Assembly: GCF_029265695.1 (NCBI RefSeq)
Contig: NZ_JAJUHW010000030.1
Span: 1-35,981 of the forward strand
DNA: 35,981 bases
Direction of reading: 5' to 3'
DNA from: Gracilinema caldarium
Lineage (GTDB): Bacteria > Spirochaetota > Spirochaetia > Treponematales > Breznakiellaceae
Below, piece after piece: positions 5,813-35,981 of this stretch. Within the stretch, counting starts at the first letter, position 1. Every line of letters starts with the position of its first letter. The notes below the pieces were generated by a model. The model was not told the origin of the DNA. It was given only the letters and a program-made list of their open reading frames with translations, and searched no databases. Made by a program: the position numbers and the translations under genes.

Positions 5813-7966
5813 ATGATTCAATCTAAATATACCATAGAAAGTGGTAAACCCCTACCCCTAGGAACAGGAATAACCGGTACGGGGGTGAACTTTTCCCTTT
5901 TTTCTCGACATGCCACCGCGGTAACCTTAGTACTTTTTGATTCCCCCGATGCGATAGACCCTATGGAGCAAATCATTTTGGATCCCCATAAGAATAGGAC
6001 CGGGGATCTTTGGCATTGCCATGTAAAAGGCCTTGAACCAGGAGCTTTTTATTTATACCGGGTTGACGGGCCATACTTACCAGAAAAGGGGTTCCGATTT
6101 AATCCAAATAAGCTGCTTTTGGATCCTTATGCAAAGGCGCTAACTGACTTATCCGGCTGGGATCTGACAAAATCCATGGGGTATAACCCCAATATGCCCG
6201 ACGGAGACCTTTCTTTTTCCTATGAAGACGATGCGCCCTATCAGCCTAAGTGTATTGTAATCGATGATGAATTTAACTGGGAGGGGGATAAGCCTATCAA
6301 TTATCCGCTCCGTTTTAGTGTGCTTTATGAAACCCATGTTAAGGGCCTTACCATGCATCCGAGTGCAGGTGTAGACCATCCGGGAACTTACCGGGGGGTA
6401 ATTGAAAAAATACCGCATCTCAAGGAATTGGGTATTACCAGTCTGGAACTGATGCCGATCCAGGAATTTAATGAACAGGAAATTCCCCGTATAAACCCAA
6501 GAACCGGCGAAGCTTTAAAAAATTATTGGGGTTATTCTACTGTTGCATTCTTTGCGCCTAAAGGATCCTATGCTGCTGATAGGACTCCGGGGGCGCAGGT
6601 GAGGGAATTTAAAGAAATGGTGAAGGCCCTGCACCGAGCGGGGATCGAAGTCATTCTGGATATTGTTTTTAACCATACAGCGGAGGGCAATGAATTAGGG
6701 CCGACCTTCTCGTTCCGTGGCATAGATAATACGATTTATTATATGCTTGATGAAAACAAACGGTATTATAAAAATTATTCAGGCTGCGGAAATACTTTGA
6801 ACTGCAATCACCCCGTGGTCCGTACGTTTATTTTAGATTGCCTGCGTTATTGGGTCATAGAAATGCATGTGGACGGGTTCCGTTTTGATCTTGGTTCTAT
6901 ACTGGGGCGGGATCAGCAAGGCCGTCTTATGGAAAATCCCCCCATGCTGGAGCGGATTGCCGAAGATCCGGTACTCCGGAACACCAAGATAATCGCCGAA
7001 GCCTGGGATGCAGGCGGCGCTTACCAGGTTGGCTGGTTTCCCGGTGGGCGCTGGGCTGAATGGAATGACCGTTACCGGGATGATGTGCGCAAGTTCTGGC
7101 GGGGAGATGCCTTTGAAGCCCGCCATTTTGCAACCCGGCTCTCGGGGAGTTCCGATTTATACCTTCGGGATGGCAGGAAACCCTTTCATTCTATCAATTT
7201 TATAACAAGTCATGATGGGTTTACCTTACGGGATCTGGTCTCTTACTCGGAAAAACATAACGAGGAAAACGGGGAAGAAAACCGGGATGGTCATGGGGCT
7301 AACTTTAGCAGCAATTATGGTTTTGAAGGACCGACCACAAACCCTGCGATAGAAACCATACGATTTAGACAAATGCGCAATTTTATTTGTACTCTTATGA
7401 TTTCCCTGGGAACACCCATGCTGCTCGGGGGAGATGAGATGGGTAGAACCCAGCGAGGAAACAACAATGCGTATTGCCAGGATAACGAAATTTCATGGTA
7501 CGACTGGACCTTGCTCAATACCAACCGCGATTTCTTCCGCTTTGTACAGGAAATGCTGGCCTTTAGGAAACGGCACCCAGCCTTTTTACGGCCTGAATTT
7601 TTTACCGGTAAAGACGGAAGCTACAATGCAACACCGGATATCACCTGGTATGACGAACAGGGTAACAGTCCTGACTGGGCAAAGATTGATAAGCGGCTTG
7701 CTTATCGCCTGGATGGTAGCAAGGCCGACACCTTTGCAGACCGGGATGACAATGATTTTTACATTATGTTTAATTCCTGTAAGGAAGGCTGTCTGTTCAA
7801 AATTGCTGAGGCTCCCGTTGGGAAAAAATGGTTCCGGGTTGTGGACACAAGCCTCCCTTCTCCGGAAGACATTGTAAGTCCCGGATTGGAACAGGCTATT
7901 GCTTCCCAGAAAGAATATTATGTGAATGACAGGACGACGGTCATTCTCATGTCAAAGTGGATTTAA
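5813..7966 (+). CDS. glgX: Glycogen debranching enzyme GlgX (GH13 isoamylase type)
   Basis: A 717-aa protein of normal length for GlgX/isoamylase. An N-terminal carbohydrate-binding module (CBM48-like, residues 10-110, PLGTGITGTGVNFSLFS) is followed by the GH13 barrel. Region I is DIVFNH (283-288). The nucleophile is Asp359 in GFRFDLGS, the acid/base Glu396 in IIAEAWD, and the third carboxylate Asp468 in ITSHDG. The enzyme hydrolyses alpha-1,6 branches in limit dextrins during glycogen breakdown in the cytoplasm. No other glycogen gene is in the window; it appears monocistronic, ending seven bases before the convergent kinase gene. The ATG has no Shine-Dalgarno site, consistent with a leaderless transcript. 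Confidence 0.93.
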   Translation: MIQSKYTIESGKPLPLGTGITGTGVNFSLFSRHATAVTLVLFDSPDAIDPMEQIILDPHKNRTGDLWHCHVKGLEPGAFYLYRVDGPYLPEKGFRFNPNKLLLDPYAKALTDLSGWDLTKSMGYNPNMPDGDLSFSYEDDAPYQPKCIVIDDEFNWEGDKPINYPLRFSVLYETHVKGLTMHPSAGVDHPGTYRGVIEKIPHLKELGITSLELMPIQEFNEQEIPRINPRTGEALKNYWGYSTVAFFAPKGSYAADRTPGAQVREFKEMVKALHRAGIEVILDIVFNHTAEGNELGPTFSFRGIDNTIYYMLDENKRYYKNYSGCGNTLNCNHPVVRTFILDCLRYWVIEMHVDGFRFDLGSILGRDQQGRLMENPPMLERIAEDPVLRNTKIIAEAWDAGGAYQVGWFPGGRWAEWNDRYRDDVRKFWRGDAFEARHFATRLSGSSDLYLRDGRKPFHSINFITSHDGFTLRDLVSYSEKHNEENGEENRDGHGANFSSNYGFEGPTTNPAIETIRFRQMRNFICTLMISLGTPMLLGGDEMGRTQRGNNNAYCQDNEISWYDWTLLNTNRDFFRFVQEMLAFRKRHPAFLRPEFFTGKDGSYNATPDITWYDEQGNSPDWAKIDKRLAYRLDGSKADTFADRDDNDFYIMFNSCKEGCLFKIAEAPVGKKWFRVVDTSLPSPEDIVSPGLEQAIASQKEYYVNDRTTVILMSKWI

Positions 7967-29869: not shown

Positions 29870-31486
29870 CTATTTTAAGCTTTTTACCGCTTCCCGCTCG
29901 ATACCGAGACAGGCTTTGTATCGGTTAAAATAGGCTTCAAAACCGGCCACATCCCGGGGATCCGGATGCAAAGGTTCACATATACTCTGCGCGATGAGGC
30001 TATCCAGGAAGTCGGGGAGGCTCAGTTTTTTTTGTTCCCGCACAAGATAGGCTGCAAGGAGGGCCATACCCCAGGCCCCACCTTCTCCCGCGGTAGCGGG
30101 AAGACTCACCGCTGTATTCGTTGCTGCAGCCATGAGGCGCTGACCTGTCTTCCCTTGCTTAAAGAATCCTCCGTGTCCCCGAATTTCTTTTACCTGAACT
30201 CCCTCTTCTTTGGTAAGTACATCTAAGCCAACCCTGAGGGCGCACAGGGATGTGAACAGGAGGGAGCGAATGACGTTTTCTAAGGTAAAGGTGCTGTCTG
30301 GGGTACGGACAAAGAGAGGCCGTCCCTCGCTAAAGCCGGTCAGGTGTTCGCCGGAAAGGTAACTAATGTGGAGGAGATTTCCCGCGTCAGCGTTCCCCTG
30401 CAAAGCTAAAGGTGTTAAGGTTTCGTAAAGCTTTCCTGTCGGGACATCAATACCGAGCACTTTGGCCGCCTGGCCGAAAATACTTATCCAGGCATCGAAG
30501 TCAGAAGATCCATTGTTCGAATGGGCCATGCCGACCGGTTTCCCGTCAGGGGTAGTAACCACATCGATTTCTTCATGTGGTTTGGAAAGATTTTTTTCTA
30601 GGACTATCATGGCAAAGACCGAGGTCCCTGCGGAGACGTTGCCTGTGTTGGGCCGCACGCTGTTGGTTGCCACCATGCCGGTACCCGCATCCCCTTCCGG
30701 TGGGCAGAGGGGGATGCCTGCTTCTAGGTTGCCGCTTGGGTCGAGGAGCCTGGCGCCAGAAGGGCTCAGCTTTCCCGCTTCTGCTCCCGCGGGGAGTACC
30801 CTGGGCAGTATATCCCGGAGTTTCCAGGGATACTGCCGGGGCGCCACAAGCGTATCAAAGGCAGCCATCATCCTTTGGTCATAATCACCTGTGTCAGGAT
30901 TGATAGGGAACATACCCGATGCATCACCCACACCGAGGACCCGCTGGCCGGTAAGTTTCCAGTGGACATAGCCCGCAAGGGTCGTGAGGTAATTGATCCG
31001 GGACACATGGTTCTGATTTTCTAAAATAGATTGATATAAATGGGCGATGCTCCAGCGCTGGGGAATGGCGAAGTTAAATAGTTTACTGAGTTCAGCGCAG
31101 GCTTGTCCTGTAATATTATTCCGCCAGGTTCTAAAAGGGGTGAGGAGATTTCCTTCTTTATCGTGAACAATGTAGCCGTGCATCATGGCGCTGAAACCCA
31201 TGGCTGCATACCGTTTGGGTGTTAGTCCGTAAGTTTTTTGAACCTGTGCTGTCAAATCTGCATAGCAGCCTGCAAGCCCCTTCCACACCTCTTCGAGATC
31301 ATAGGTCCAAATTCCTTCCCTCAGGCTGTTTTCCCATTCATAAGACCCCGATGCAAGGGGTGTACTGTCCGGGGCAATAAGGGCAGCCTTAATTCGTGTG
31401 GACCCGAATTCGATACCCAGAATAGCTTTGCCGGATGCGATCATTTCCTTGCTAGCCTGGGGGCTTAGTTTTGATGTTTGGTTCAT
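29870..31486 (-). CDS. FGGY-family carbohydrate kinase
   Basis: A 538-aa sugar kinase. The N-terminal domain starts [16 protein letters not shown] (phosphate-1 motif, with the D of DxGT replaced by E) and includes [16 protein letters not shown], the hinge-side sugar contact of xylulokinase-like enzymes. The C-terminal domain has [18 protein letters not shown] and [27 protein letters not shown], which bind ATP. It phosphorylates a sugar or polyol; the length and hinge differ from classic XylB, so I leave the sugar open. GGAG precedes the ATG. The convergent LacI regulator and the palindrome at 31510-31529 suggest local control. Confidence 0.83.
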
Positions 31487-31673: not shown

Positions 31674-31907
31674 TTAAATCGCTTTATTACTTCTTTGTTT
31701 TATGCTGCATCTCATACCAGGGCATGATGGATGTTTATTTTTAAATTCTGGGCTGCCATATCTGGGGCATTTAGAGCTTCCTTCAGTATTGAATCGAGGA
31801 TACAAACAGCAATTTAAGCCACATAATGCATAGTACGGTTCTTTTCTAGATAGAGTAGAATCAAGTTCGCAATGAATTATGGATGATCTGGATTTACAAT
31901 GACCCAA
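31674..31907 (-). pseudogene. Decayed DUF3795 protein, distal integron cassette remnant
   Basis: The reading frame gives 77 residues, of which about 15-77 match the N-terminal part of DUF3795 proteins (RKEPYYALCGLNCCLYPRF, TEGSSKCP, KHPSCP). Two positions that are usually Cys (C-x-L-C-P and CPGCG) read Tyr, each explained by one G-to-A change. The frame stops well before the usual C-terminal Cys cluster. It lies just downstream of attC A on the same strand and in the AT-rich zone, so I take it as what is left of the oldest visible cassette. No attC could be found after it. Confidence 0.55.
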
Positions 31908-31983
31908 CAGACGTCAAATTGCGAACAAGACTTGACACTATCCTGACTGAAGCAGAACCTGTTTTGCTCAAGTACAGCCTCCA

Positions 31984-32093
31984 CCGTTACTATTTGCTTC
32001 ACCTGCATGGCGTGAATTGGCACGTATTCTTGCAAACCTAAGGTGCAGCAAGAATCGTGACATAGCTGAGTCAAGTTGAAGCAGTTGTTAGAT
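31984..32093 (-). other. attC site A (degenerate outer core)
   Basis: On the minus strand the site starts with R'' ATCTAAC (32093-32087) and the left arm ACTGCTTCAAC, shares the GTCACG/AGAAT central stem with the other sites, and returns with GGTGAAGC. The expected outer core GTTRRRY is GTAACGG here, so recombination at this end is probably lost. The TAA of the preceding ORF lies inside R''. Confidence 0.7.
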
Positions 32094-32409
32094 TTCTTTC
32101 AATTTTTTATTACTATTAATATAATTCCTATGATATTTATTTAAAACTTCAATTAACACATCTTGTTTTAATCCATAAGTATTTGGTAATACCGAATTAA
32201 TAGACCATATTTTTGATATTACTTTTATTAATGAGTTCTTTTTTATATTCATCAGTATAAACGTATCCAACTATTTTATTTCCACTAATCGAAATTCCAT
32301 ACAATTCTTTAATATTTTTCCATTTTCTAGGTAGTTTTTCTTCATTTTTTCCTTCCGTATTTTCGTTGTTATATTTTTCTAAACAGTCATGAATTTTATA
32401 GAGCGAAAT
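32088..32409 (-). pseudogene. Frameshifted cassette ORF between attC B and attC A
   Basis: Two overlapping minus frames are read. The upstream one (32409-32197, 70 codons, without an ATG) includes KELYGISISGNKIVGYVYTD. The downstream one (32270-32088, 60 codons) includes SVLPNTYGLKQDVLIEVLNKYH and ends in a TAA that sits inside attC A. Both have the AT-rich codon use of the other cassette genes, and their ends overlap, so one frameshift in about 32197-32270 would join them. I do not recognise the protein. The short downstream frame could also be a small intact gene, but its ATG lies in the middle of the upstream coding pattern and has no good ribosome-binding site. Confidence 0.45.
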
Positions 32410-32438
32410 TTATTTATTGATTACCGCCGTAGGCATGA

Positions 32439-32569
32439 ATCTAACGTACGCTTAACCGGTAACGCGTATATGGCGCGATTTTTGCCGAGGATCGTTCCCA
32501 ACGAAGTTCGGGCGTGACGACCGGCAAAAATCGTGACATGACCGAGTCAGGTTGAAGCGGTTGTTGAGC
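32439..32569 (-). other. attC site B
   Basis: 131 bp. On the minus strand R'' is GCTCAAC (32569-32563) and R' is GTTAGAT (32445-32439), both fitting the consensus. L'' CGCTTCAACC pairs with L' GGTTAAGCG, leaving one unpaired C in L'', which fixes the orientation as minus. The centre has a perfect 12-bp stem (CGATTTTTGCCG with CGGCAAAAATCG). Confidence 0.88.
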
Positions 32570-32610
32570 GATTATTACCGATATGTATTTCTTTATATTA
32601 ATTCACACTT

Positions 32611-33132
32611 CTACCATGTATTCCAATGAATATTTTCGATTTTGTATTTATCAATTGGTATCATGTTTTTGTTCTTTGGCACACCAATTGCAATAACATT
32701 TAGTGGGATTATATTATTGGGAATATTGCATTCTATCCTAACATCATTTATTCTTTTTTCTTCAGGGTATACAGCTGTCCACACGGCGCCATACCCAAGT
32801 GAATGAGCTGCAAGTAAAATATTTTCAGATGCTGCTGAACAATCTTGTATCCAATATTTATTTGCAAAATGCATATCTTTATCAGGTACCCCACAAACAA
32901 TTATTGCTGCACCAGATTGTTCAAGCATTTTAGCATAGGGTAATAATTTTGATAGATTTATTAATTTATCCTTTTTATTAATTATAATAAATGCCCAAGG
33001 TTGAACATTCACTGCAGAAGGAGCAGCCATTCCGGCTTTGACTATTAATTCAATATCTTCATTTTTTATTATTTCACCAGTGTAGTCTCTTATACTATGA
33101 CGTGAAAAAATCAAATCTAATAGCGTGTTCAT
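32611..33132 (-). CDS. Nitroreductase-family protein (integron cassette gene)
   Basis: A 173-aa FMN-dependent nitroreductase-type protein. SRHSIRDYTGEII at the N-terminus carries the phosphate-contacting RxSxR-like motif, MAAPSAVNVQPWAFIII the flavin-stacking block, and LLAAHSLGYGAVWTAVYPEE the C-terminal flavin and dimer contact; the length suits the small single-domain group. Such enzymes reduce nitro compounds, quinones or dehalogenate small molecules with NAD(P)H. AAGGAGAT precedes the ATG. The gene occupies one cassette (33208-32445): its stop is 42 bp from R'' of attC B, and the start follows attC C by about 70 bp. AT content is much higher than in the backbone. Confidence 0.85.
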   Translation of the reverse strand: MNTLLDLIFSRHSIRDYTGEIIKNEDIELIVKAGMAAPSAVNVQPWAFIIINKKDKLINLSKLLPYAKMLEQSGAAIIVCGVPDKDMHFANKYWIQDCSAASENILLAAHSLGYGAVWTAVYPEEKRINDVRIECNIPNNIIPLNVIAIGVPKNKNMIPIDKYKIENIHWNTW

Positions 33133-33202
33133 ACTTATCTCCTTACCTTATTCATTGTATTGTATTGTTTGGTATATATATATATTAGCGCATAAGGCGT
33201 CG

Positions 33203-33333
33203 ACCTAACATTTCGCTTAACCTGCGAGGCGTAATAGCGCGATTCTTGTCATGGAGCGTTTCCAACGAAGTTGAGGCATGAAGACCAGCAAGAATCGTAA
33301 CATAGCCGAATCAGTTTGAATCGGTTGTTAGAT
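33203..33333 (-). other. attC site C
   Basis: 131 bp. Minus-strand R'' is ATCTAAC (33333-33327) and R' is GTTAGGT (33209-33203). Outer arms CGATTCAAACTG and CAGGTTAAGCG pair with an extra base on the left arm. CGATTCTTG and CAAGAATCG form the central stem. The TAA of the upstream cassette gene is inside R''. Confidence 0.88.
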
Positions 33334-34146
33334 GCCAATTTCTGTATTTTTAATTGTATCCTGTATGATATTGTGACAGCATTTACCTAATGGATTTTTG
33401 TGTAAGCAATCGGAGTTTTTCATAGACCCCGTAATTTTATTGATGTCTTTTACTGTTTTTGCTTGATGAGTTTTTATAGCTTCAATTACATTTTCTTTTG
33501 TTACTTTACTACAATAACACGCATAAATTGTCTTAGAATCTGATTTATACCACAACGGGACTACCAAATCTTCACAATTATAAAACCTATTTGAATTGAG
33601 ACTGAAGTATGAAACTGAACATTTTGGATTCATACATAAAGAATATTCTCCTTTAATGAAGTTCTTTTTTTTATCTTCTTTAAGTAAAGAAAAAACAGTA
33701 TCTATTTTTACACGTTCTCCATGTTTTCTACATTTTGGACAATTCTGACTGAAAATTGAAACTGCGCTTATTTTTATAGCTTTTAGACTATTTTTAAATC
33801 CGCCTGTTATTAAACTATACTCATCTTTTTTGTGAAGATCTAAAAAATTACTATATCTGCTACTTATGTAATTAGTGGATAACACACCAGTTATTGCACC
33901 GTCTATGTTATATAATCTACATGAAAATCTGTAGTTATCTGGACTTAGTCCAGTGTATAAATCTATACCATTTACTAATATGGAAGGCGAACCTTGAAAA
34001 TGAAGATCACGAGCCATATTTTCATTTTCTATTAATGTTATAACCAACTGATCATTAGGAATATTATAGTTAAACATAAAATCACGCAAGTTCTTTAAGG
34101 TTTCATTTGCGTTTGGGCAATCTTTAAAATATTGAAACTCTATCAT
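33328..34146 (-). CDS. Thioredoxin-like domain fused to CopZ-like zinc/[2Fe-2S] domains (integron cassette gene)
   Basis: A 272-aa protein with three parts. Residues 1-70 resemble the small thioredoxin-like DF/mercury-associated proteins (EFQYFKDCPNANETL, FQGSPSILVNG). Residues about 130-205 match the zinc-binding domain of archaeal and bacterial CopZ copper chaperones (CPKCRKHGERVKIDTVFSLL, SLCMNPKCSVSYFS, VPLWYKSD). Residues about 208-265 are a BFD-like [2Fe-2S] domain with cysteines CYC...C...CC (YACYCSKVT, DCLHKNPLGKCC). CopZ has a third HMA copper domain, which is absent here. A role in metal (copper, mercury) or redox handling is inferred. GAGGAT precedes the ATG. The stop TAA lies within attC C. 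Confidence 0.68.
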   Translation of the reverse strand: MIEFQYFKDCPNANETLKNLRDFMFNYNIPNDQLVITLIENENMARDLHFQGSPSILVNGIDLYTGLSPDNYRFSCRLYNIDGAITGVLSTNYISSRYSNFLDLHKKDEYSLITGGFKNSLKAIKISAVSIFSQNCPKCRKHGERVKIDTVFSLLKEDKKKNFIKGEYSLCMNPKCSVSYFSLNSNRFYNCEDLVVPLWYKSDSKTIYACYCSKVTKENVIEAIKTHQAKTVKDINKITGSMKNSDCLHKNPLGKCCHNIIQDTIKNTEIGI

Positions 34147-34202
34147 TTAGGATCCTCTTACTAAGGTTATTCATCTATTACTATTCTTTGCTCGAAGGGT
34201 CT

Positions 34203-34312
34203 ACCTAACATTCAGTTAACCCGCGAGGCGGCATGGTGTGCTTTTTTGTAGAGCGAAGCGACAAGCAAGTTTCGTGACAATAGCCGCGTCATGGTGGAAG
34301 CGATTGTTAGTT
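34203..34312 (-). other. attC site D
   Basis: 110 bp. Minus-strand R'' is AACTAAC (34312-34306, one mismatch to RYYYAAC) and R' is GTTAGGT (34209-34203). Left arm CGCTTCCACC faces GGTTAACTG with one extra base. The conserved TGACGCGGCTATTGTCACG block shared with the other sites is present. It begins 8 bp after the stop of the upstream gene. Confidence 0.85.
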
Positions 34313-34319
34313 GAAAAGA

Positions 34320-35420
34320 TTAGTCAATTATTGATATACGTTGTGCATCATTATTATTAAAAATTATATGTATAGTAGCCAATCTTCTTGAAGCCCAATC
34401 AGGGGTTTTGGGAGTTAAAGTATAAATTATTTCGCTTTTATTATTTGTTATTTTGACAACACCTGTAATAATATTTTTATGTTTATTAATATCTATTGAA
34501 AAAGTTGTTTCTGTTCCAGCAACACTAGACAAATATAATCCCGGTGAAAAGTTCATCACAAGGGTATCATTATTATTATCTTTTAAAAAATAATGAATAC
34601 TATTTATTATAATTTCATTTTTGTCTGCCGTAGCATGTATTAGACAATTATCGCCTCGGATAATAATCTGATTATTATCAATAGCTATTTTATACGAAAA
34701 TGTTTTTTCACCCAATTTATATATCAGAGCTTCATCATTGGTCAGAAGAATTGAACTTGTTAGAAAATAAATCGGATCGTTTGATGCGCGTATTATACCT
34801 ATTAAAAATGATTCTGAATAGTAACTTTTTAATGCTACAAAAAATGGTGCTTTATTAATTTCCACTGGAATATTCATTTCCTTATTATCAATGGTTAGTT
34901 TAACATTTTTACTTCCCAGGGTACTTTTTTCACGATACATTATTGGAAAAGAGGTATGTTCAGAGTGTCCTTCGGGATTAATTAAACCGCCATATTTCTC
35001 AGAAGGGTTACCAACACATTGAAAGAACCAAGATATCAGTTCTTTATCATTTGTAGTAAAATTAATTGTTATTTCTGGTTTCGCTTTTTTTGTATTTAAT
35101 TTACATTCTATTGGTGTAAATACAAGGTGTCGATTTTTTGATTCTTCTTTCATTGAAAGAAAGACATCTTCATTATTCAAATAATCTATTTGTGTTTTGT
35201 CTTTAAATGTCAGTATAATTCTAACATTATCTGTATCTTTAATCATCGCTTCAATGCATTCATATTTCTCATGATTTGTAAAATAACTGATTATGTGATA
35301 GTCATATTTTTCAAAATGGACGAAAAATGGATCTATCAGCGTGTTTCTCAAACTGATACCTTCTGAAAATGTTGTAATAGATAGACTAATAAACAATAAA
35401 ACCAATATTTTTGTTTTCAT
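34320..35420 (-). CDS. Exported protein of unknown function (integron cassette gene)
   Basis: A 366-aa protein with a signal peptide (MKTKILVLLFISLSITTFS, then EGISLRN), no lipobox and no other membrane segment, so it is probably periplasmic or outer-membrane associated. The mature part looks beta-rich, with many short hydrophobic strands and Asn/Lys/Ile-rich composition. I recognise no family; short stretches such as DDKEL-like TTNDKELISWFFQC and GGLINPEGHSEH may be conserved loops. I choose 35420 over the ATG at 35426 because the AAGGGGG site is then seven to eight bases away, while it almost touches the earlier ATG. The gene fills one cassette of about 1.26 kb (35466-34209). Confidence 0.7.
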   Translation of the reverse strand: MKTKILVLLFISLSITTFSEGISLRNTLIDPFFVHFEKYDYHIISYFTNHEKYECIEAMIKDTDNVRIILTFKDKTQIDYLNNEDVFLSMKEESKNRHLVFTPIECKLNTKKAKPEITINFTTNDKELISWFFQCVGNPSEKYGGLINPEGHSEHTSFPIMYREKSTLGSKNVKLTIDNKEMNIPVEINKAPFFVALKSYYSESFLIGIIRASNDPIYFLTSSILLTNDEALIYKLGEKTFSYKIAIDNNQIIIRGDNCLIHATADKNEIIINSIHYFLKDNNNDTLVMNFSPGLYLSSVAGTETTFSIDINKHKNIITGVVKITNNKSEIIYTLTPKTPDWASRRLATIHIIFNNNDAQRISIID

Positions 35421-35460
35421 ATTCATTCCCCCTTTCTTCTATATTGAGCGCGCAGCGTCA

Positions 35461-35563
35461 ATTTAACATGCGCATAACTGGCGAAGCTTGATTGGCGCTG
35501 TTTGTGCCATCAAATTGAAACGCACAAACCGTGACATAGCTGAGGCTAGTTGAAGCATTTGAT
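35461..35563 (-). other. attC site E (inner core R'' altered next to an IS end)
   Basis: Minus-strand R' is GTTAAAT (35467-35461), a consensus core. Arms TGCTTCAACTAGC and GCCAGTTATGCG pair with the usual extra base in the left arm, and the conserved GCTATGTCACG block is present. The R'' position reads GTATC where the sister sites have CTAAC. The IS110-like element starts within a few bases of it. Confidence 0.78.
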
Positions 35564-35564
35564 A

Positions 35565-35625
35565 CTCATAAAGGCCCTATAATAGTACTAACTACACTCA
35601 AACTATCAAGGAGGACCTTTATGAG
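35565..35625 (+). promoter_or_regulatory. Hairpin covering the transposase RBS and start, with an internal -10 box
   Basis: The right arm (35609-35625) includes the AAGGAGG ribosome-binding site and the ATG at 35621; the left arm lies upstream of TATAAT (35578-35583). A transcript entering from outside would fold and hide the site, while one started at the internal -10 would lack the left arm. No clear -35 box is seen. Confidence 0.5.
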
Positions 35626-35703
35626 ATTTTTTAAATAACAGCTCCAATTCTACATCGGAATAGACTTGCACGCAAGAACCATGTATGTCTGCGTTGGTGT
35701 GTA
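35621..35703 (+). pseudogene. IS110-family transposase, N-terminal fragment with in-frame stop
   Basis: The frame reads MRFFK, stop, then QLQFYIGIDLHARTMYVC and a terminal stop after VGV. GIDLHARTMYVC is the first DEDD strand of IS110/IS1111 transposases, with the first catalytic Asp. The stop at codon six (35636-35638) and the loss of the rest behind a second element show that it is dead. AAGGAGG sits eight bases before the ATG. Confidence 0.7.
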
Positions 35704-35710
35704 AATAGAC

Positions 35711-35977
35711 ATGGTACCCCCCTGGGTCTACCCCGATCCAACGGATACGGGAATTAGATCTACCGCACGGAAGTATGGGACGACGGTAAAGACGGTGAGG
35801 AAGTGGCTGCAGCGCTATGAGGCAGAAAAGAAAGCAGGGCTTATCGAACAAAGCCGTCGGCCCCACAGCAGTCCTAGAGCCACAAAGCCCTGGATACGCT
35901 TTAAGCTTAAACAAGCGGTAAAGGATCTGCAGCGGGCAGGCAAACGAAAGAGTGTAACGCGATTAAAGCAAGAATGA
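35711..35977 (+). pseudogene. IS481-like transposase, N-terminal helix-turn-helix fragment
   Basis: Eighty-eight residues are read before the stop near the window edge. GIRSTARKYGTTVKTVRKWLQRYEAE is a helix-turn-helix of the type that opens IS481/IS3-group transposases, followed by the basic GLIEQSRRPHSSPRATKP linker. The frame ends at VTRLKQE with TGA, where family members carry on into the integrase core; inserting one base there (QEL-R in place of QE-stop) would keep it open, so a frameshift is likely. No ribosome-binding site is seen before the ATG. The catalytic core would lie beyond the window, so this could alternatively be the first frame of a frameshifting transposase. Confidence 0.55.
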
Positions 35978-35981
35978 GAGC

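Follow-up and report, generated by a model that had tools for sequence, protein, structure and literature searches.

Organization of the locus

The stretch of DNA analysed here (the window) is the complete contig C5 (35,981 bases). It belongs to a draft genome that totals 3.04 Mb in 88 contigs and is 95.3% complete. Between an FGGY kinase gene (29870–31486) and the contig end, the minus strand carries an array of five attC sites (A–E), which are 105–129 bp long and homologous over their full length when aligned, and the genes between these sites have a GC content of 23–32%, compared with 49% in positions 1–31486 (Table 1). The preliminary description had claimed five minus-strand attC-like elements of 103–131 bp separating AT-rich genes, and all five were found. 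Of the span it gave for the array (31674–35563), positions 31674–31983 contain a short degenerate ORF without an attC site.

Table 1. Features of the array and its borders (window coordinates; scores of attC sites are those of covariance model R1 on the minus strand)
Feature	Coordinates	Strand	Description
FGGY carbohydrate kinase	29870..31486	-	Pfam FGGY; chromosomal gene at the distal array end, outside the integron
Gene 5, cysteine-rich ORF remnant	31674..31907	-	Between array and kinase; without an attC of its own
attC E	31984..32091	-	Most distal site; R' AGTAACG, without GTT; 56.1 bits, E 5e-14
Cassette gene 4	32088..32345	-	Frameshifted remnant, GC 23%
attC D	32439..32567	-	Best-kept site; 62.7 bits, E 5e-16
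Cassette gene 3	32611..33132	-	Nitroreductase family, 173 aa; Pfam Nitroreductase 4e-21; GC 32%
attC C	33203..33331	-	CTAACAAC...GTTAGGT; 52.8 bits, E 4e-13
Cassette gene 2	33328..34146	-	272 aa; thioredoxin-like N-terminus and CopZ-type zinc / [2Fe-2S]-binding domain
attC B	34203..34310	-	R boxes intact; 28.5 bits, E 8e-6 (window), 7e-4 (genome-wide)
Cassette gene 1	34320..35426	-	368 aa; N-terminal signal-like stretch; GC 27.5%
attC A	35461..35565	-	R' GTTAAAT intact, R'' diverged (GTATCAA); 52.2 bits, E 7e-13
IS481-family element, left end and transposase start	35692..35981	+	NCBIfam transpos_IS481 1e-12; element cut by the contig end

Orthologues of the kinase were found in five relatives. 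No attI was seen on the window contig, on which the IS481 end lies at 35692 and which stops at 35981. The same IS481 end recurs at three other contigs of this genome (C88, C78, and C84), and joining the end of C5 to other contigs through the IS481 copies failed, most copies found lying at contig ends where they could not be paired.

Gene 1 had no match in Pfam, NCBIfam, PADLOC, or PDB, and the gene 5 ORF had no family match in Pfam. Gene 2 matched Pfam zf_CopZ (4e-15) and, below the cut-off, NCBIfam CopZ_Nterm_CU (2e-45). It was absent from viral contigs, and plasmids yielded distant matches to its CopZ half only. A homologue with 49% identity lies in the intI-linked array of Treponema caldaria (L051:2072-2866), where an internal TAG separates its two domains. 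Gene 4 is split into two open segments that overlap and lie in different frames.

Identity and polarity of the attC sites

Inspection of the site sequences revealed a GTTRRRY ending in A (GTTAAAT), B and C (both GTTAGGT), and D (GTTAGAT), in agreement with the four of five sites initially reported; E reads AGTAACG. An AAC-type R'' box starts B, C, D, and E, so that B, C, and D have both boxes, A has R' only, and E has R'' only. The extra left-arm base, described at first for each site, is clear in D and also present in the family consensus (CGCTT-C-AACC facing GGTTAAGCG). Of the two sequence blocks said to be shared by the sites, GTCACG occurs in A, B, D, and E, with C reading GTTACG, and GAATC proved not to be general. 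The central stem of B is largely broken.

The covariance model R1 rests on nine attC sites, eight from the intI-adjacent array of T. caldaria H1 (G014) and one from another genome with intI (G013); no window site was used in training. On the minus strand of the window, R1 scored all five sites, including B, C, and D (28.5, 52.8, and 62.7 bits). Sites A–E were also the five best matches in the whole 3.04-Mb genome, with E values of 4e-14 to 7e-4, and the sixth lay on contig C19. Plus-strand scores were lower for D (32.7 vs 62.7 bits), E (19.7 vs 56.1), and A (13.4 vs 52.2), and B and C had no plus-strand match in the window. Because plus-strand scores were much lower or absent for every site, the polarity is fixed, the orientation agrees with the direction of the genes as originally proposed, and the strand folding for recombination would be the plus strand of the window.

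Unconstrained DNA folding of single sites gave a convincing attC hairpin for D on the plus strand of the window (z −4.25) and moderate results for C and E. The folds of A and of B, the weakest R1 site, hardly exceeded those of shuffled sequences. Without constraints, the bottom strand of B did not form the paired arms. Since single-site folding was weak for A and B, the covariance model was used in its place. In an alignment of 14 sites (the five window sites and nine from relatives), 92.6% of the cells in the R, L, and central helices were paired, 15 pairs had two-sided changes, and the covariation score was 0.338; slid controls gave 26–39% paired cells and covariation of at most 0.127, a comparison that is somewhat flattering because the structure was derived from the same alignment. 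Covariation across the 14 sites thus backs the R and L arms and the extrahelical base.

State of the array

The window sites scored 28–63 bits with R1, compared with mostly 75–104 bits for full-length sites of other arrays, a gap that is partly bias, since the other loci had been selected through a 5' motif and the training set of R1 included T. caldaria sites. The array gives the impression of partial decay: E has no GTT, R'' of A has diverged, the stem of B is broken, gene 4 carries a frameshift, and only a remnant of gene 5 persists. Such a state suits an array's old distal end as well as an array that has been abandoned.

Search for the integrase and synteny with relatives

A profile search with PF00589 and TIGR02249 found no intI in the 95%-complete assembly. 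Its sole matches were two Xer-like recombinases on contig C49, which fell far below the integron cut-off and were rejected, and the 35,981-base window contig contained no tyrosine recombinase. Three genomes of the same genus, that of T. caldaria among them, do have intI, with scores of 373–385 bits against a curated cut-off of 265. In the integrases of this genus (L050–L053), the SAM-like domain is preceded by about 100 additional residues, and intI is divergent from the array in G014 and G015 (L050–L052) and on contig C203 of G016 (L053).

Comparison with relatives revealed where an integrase would be expected. The genes of window positions 21.4–28.7 kb and those of contig C44 of the present genome have counterparts in T. 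caldaria that flank araA, about 5 kb apart. C44 ends inside araD, and araA was not found when the present genome was searched for it, a negative answer that is weak by itself and agrees with C44 ending within araD. Together with the T. caldaria synteny, these observations make the gap between C5 and C44 the expected place of intI. G015 has the orthologue of the window kinase directly next to araA in divergent orientation, and no cassettes separate the two genes. G016:C203 has the order araD-araA-intI on one strand, followed on the far side by an attI-like GTTAGAT near the contig end. The last two arrangements point to an integron between araA and the kinase, with intI reading away and the array extending toward the kinase; the window array adjoins the same kinase and has the orientation expected of such an integron. 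Synteny with G015, G016, and T. caldaria thereby backs the initial suggestion that the integrase side is to the right.

Some observations weaken this placement. G016:C203 is only 75% identical to the present genome, compared with about 95% for the other G016 contigs examined, and such divergence raises the possibility that the contig belongs to another species and was misbinned. The intI genes of T. caldaria and G015 adjoin lipA rather than araA. At the lipA locus of the present genome, the start of a transposase-like ORF lies at a contig end, in the position that intI occupies in those two genomes.

Cassettes elsewhere in the clade and beyond

The match on C19 of the present genome (G000:C19:32721-32852; L093:4722-4853) is a single weak attC (28 bits) with a Phd/ParE toxin-antitoxin pair, which stands alone between HD-GYP-like and MFS-like genes. 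The orthologous place in G016 (G016:C216; L090:4998-6188), with flanks about 95% identical, contains different toxin-antitoxin cassettes and an attC of 91 bits, and both loci share an attC remnant at the right edge. In G015, contig C58 has two attC-like matches of low score (32 and 19 bits) among small genes (L094:6485-7262), a few kilobases beyond the orthologous kinase. The T. caldaria array contains two apparently identical toxin-antitoxin-like cassettes (L051:3177-3927 and 5895-6645), each with small CopG-like and PIN-like ORFs and with identical attC sequences.

Sites of the window family were also found in L018–L044, often several per contig and mostly in metagenome bins, labelled Treponema, Bacteroidota, Cloacimonadota, Deltaproteobacteria, Caldisericales, and the archaeon Methanofastidiosum, whose contig (L032) carries five full attC sites.

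Discussion

That sites A–E are attCs appears practically certain. The alternative reading, in which the repeats would be intergenic hairpins of some other kind (REP-like or RNA elements), could draw on the folds of A and B, which barely exceed shuffles, yet an Rfam scan of the window gave no match, the sites fit a model of intI-linked attCs with E values down to 5e-16, and there is one site per gene in fixed polarity, with only one further cassette elsewhere in the genome. The model search and the intI-linked array of T. caldaria rule this reading out for practical purposes. The shared attC family and the homologue of cassette gene 2 further tie the window array to a complete integron of the same genus.

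Integrases generally insert circular cassettes at attI and cut one strand of the folded attC, and the distal cassettes of an integron are the oldest and least expressed. Nothing suggests that the window array departs from this mechanism. We propose that in the host, a species of the T. caldaria genus, an integron separates araA from the FGGY kinase gene. Read from left to right in the direction of the kinase, the layout would be araA (reverse), intI (reverse), attI, further cassettes, IS481, attC A–E with the four cassette genes, and the kinase. The integrase gene would lie next to araA in the assembly gap, so that an insertion sequence (IS481) and a contig end would separate the array from it. 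IntI would capture circular cassettes at attI, and by cutting attC in its folded bottom strand, here the plus strand of the window, it would release or rearrange them. As the five sites appear old and partly decayed, the distal cassettes may now be moved rarely or never.

On balance, and with moderate confidence, we take the window array to be the distal part of a sedentary chromosomal integron; its intI would be in the gap or would have been there until recently. The preliminary description had left a choice between a distal array with its integrase to the right and an integrase-less cluster, and this pair of options is supported. The lack of intI in a 95%-complete assembly, the possible misbinning of C203, and the position of intI at lipA in T. 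caldaria and G015 count against a split integron. Possible, though we rate it lower, is a true cluster of attC sites lacking integrase, left to decay at the ara locus after intI was deleted or destroyed by insertion sequences. The missing intI, the IS481 end near the array, the transposase-like ORF start at the lipA position, the loss of GTT in E, the frameshift in gene 4, the remnant state of gene 5, and the low scores relative to intact arrays (28–63 vs mostly 75–104 bits) all agree with such decay. However, the expected place of intI is an assembly gap that has also swallowed araA and part of araD, complete integrons can have decayed distal cassettes too, and the difference between the C19 cassette locus and its G016 counterpart suggests a recently active integrase in the clade. 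It is improbable that the array was built far from intI by insertion of cassettes in trans at an attG-like site upstream of the kinase: small toxin-antitoxin cassette loci without a local intI do occur in this genome and in G016, but a contig binned in G016 has intI at araA in an orientation suiting a kinase-ward array, and five consecutive sites fit an array better than repeated insertion in trans.

IntegronFinder defines a CALIN as at least two attC sites without a neighbouring integrase, and draft genomes split integrons into apparent CALINs (PMC9024848). With five attC sites and no intI on its contig, the window falls into this class subject to that draft-genome caveat, and it is probably a split integron rather than an evolutionary CALIN. 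T. phagedenis has an attC cluster with cassettes in a place syntenic with the integron of a relative, and no intI was found there (PMC3607928); in contrast, the host genome here is a draft with the position of intI in a gap.

The closest complete system is that of T. caldaria H1 (genome of 3,239,340 bp; PMC3739177), in which a minus-strand intI neighbours lipA and the array runs on the plus strand from an attI-like GTTAGAA. It resembles the window in genus, attC family, the cassette 2 homologue, and AT-rich cassettes behind intI, and differs in having intI at lipA and in scores of 75–101 bits (most of these sites being training sites), compared with 28–63 bits in the window. Chromosomal integrons are known in T. 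denticola, T. vincentii, T. succinifaciens, and T. brennaborense and, like the one proposed here, are sedentary, with similar attC sites along the array and diverse cassettes (PMC3607928). The divergent intI of T. caldaria, G015, and the C203 contig differs from that of oral Treponema, which reads in the same direction as the array. A divergent intI is the usual integron arrangement.

A broader picture can be put forward tentatively, in which the T. caldaria genus would have two integron lineages, one at lipA and one at ara. Their intI would be divergent from the array, in contrast to oral Treponema, where the two share one direction, and satellite loci would pass toxin-antitoxin cassettes between sister species with no integrase at the site. 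The window would then hold an array of the ara type.

Integrons in Treponema, the loss of intI with retention of attC sites in T. phagedenis, and CALINs created by draft assemblies are already published (PMC3607928, PMC9024848). Details that go beyond the 2013 survey (PMC3607928) are the host itself, the location at ara, and a divergent intI in the T. caldaria genus. The window also provides a worked example of a draft-genome 'CALIN' that, judging from synteny, would be the end piece of a split integron. The present analysis adds non-oral treponemes, those of the T. caldaria group, to the carriers of integrons, and because their loci and intI orientation differ from those of the species surveyed in 2013 (PMC3607928), it suggests that spirochaete integrons arrived or moved more than once.
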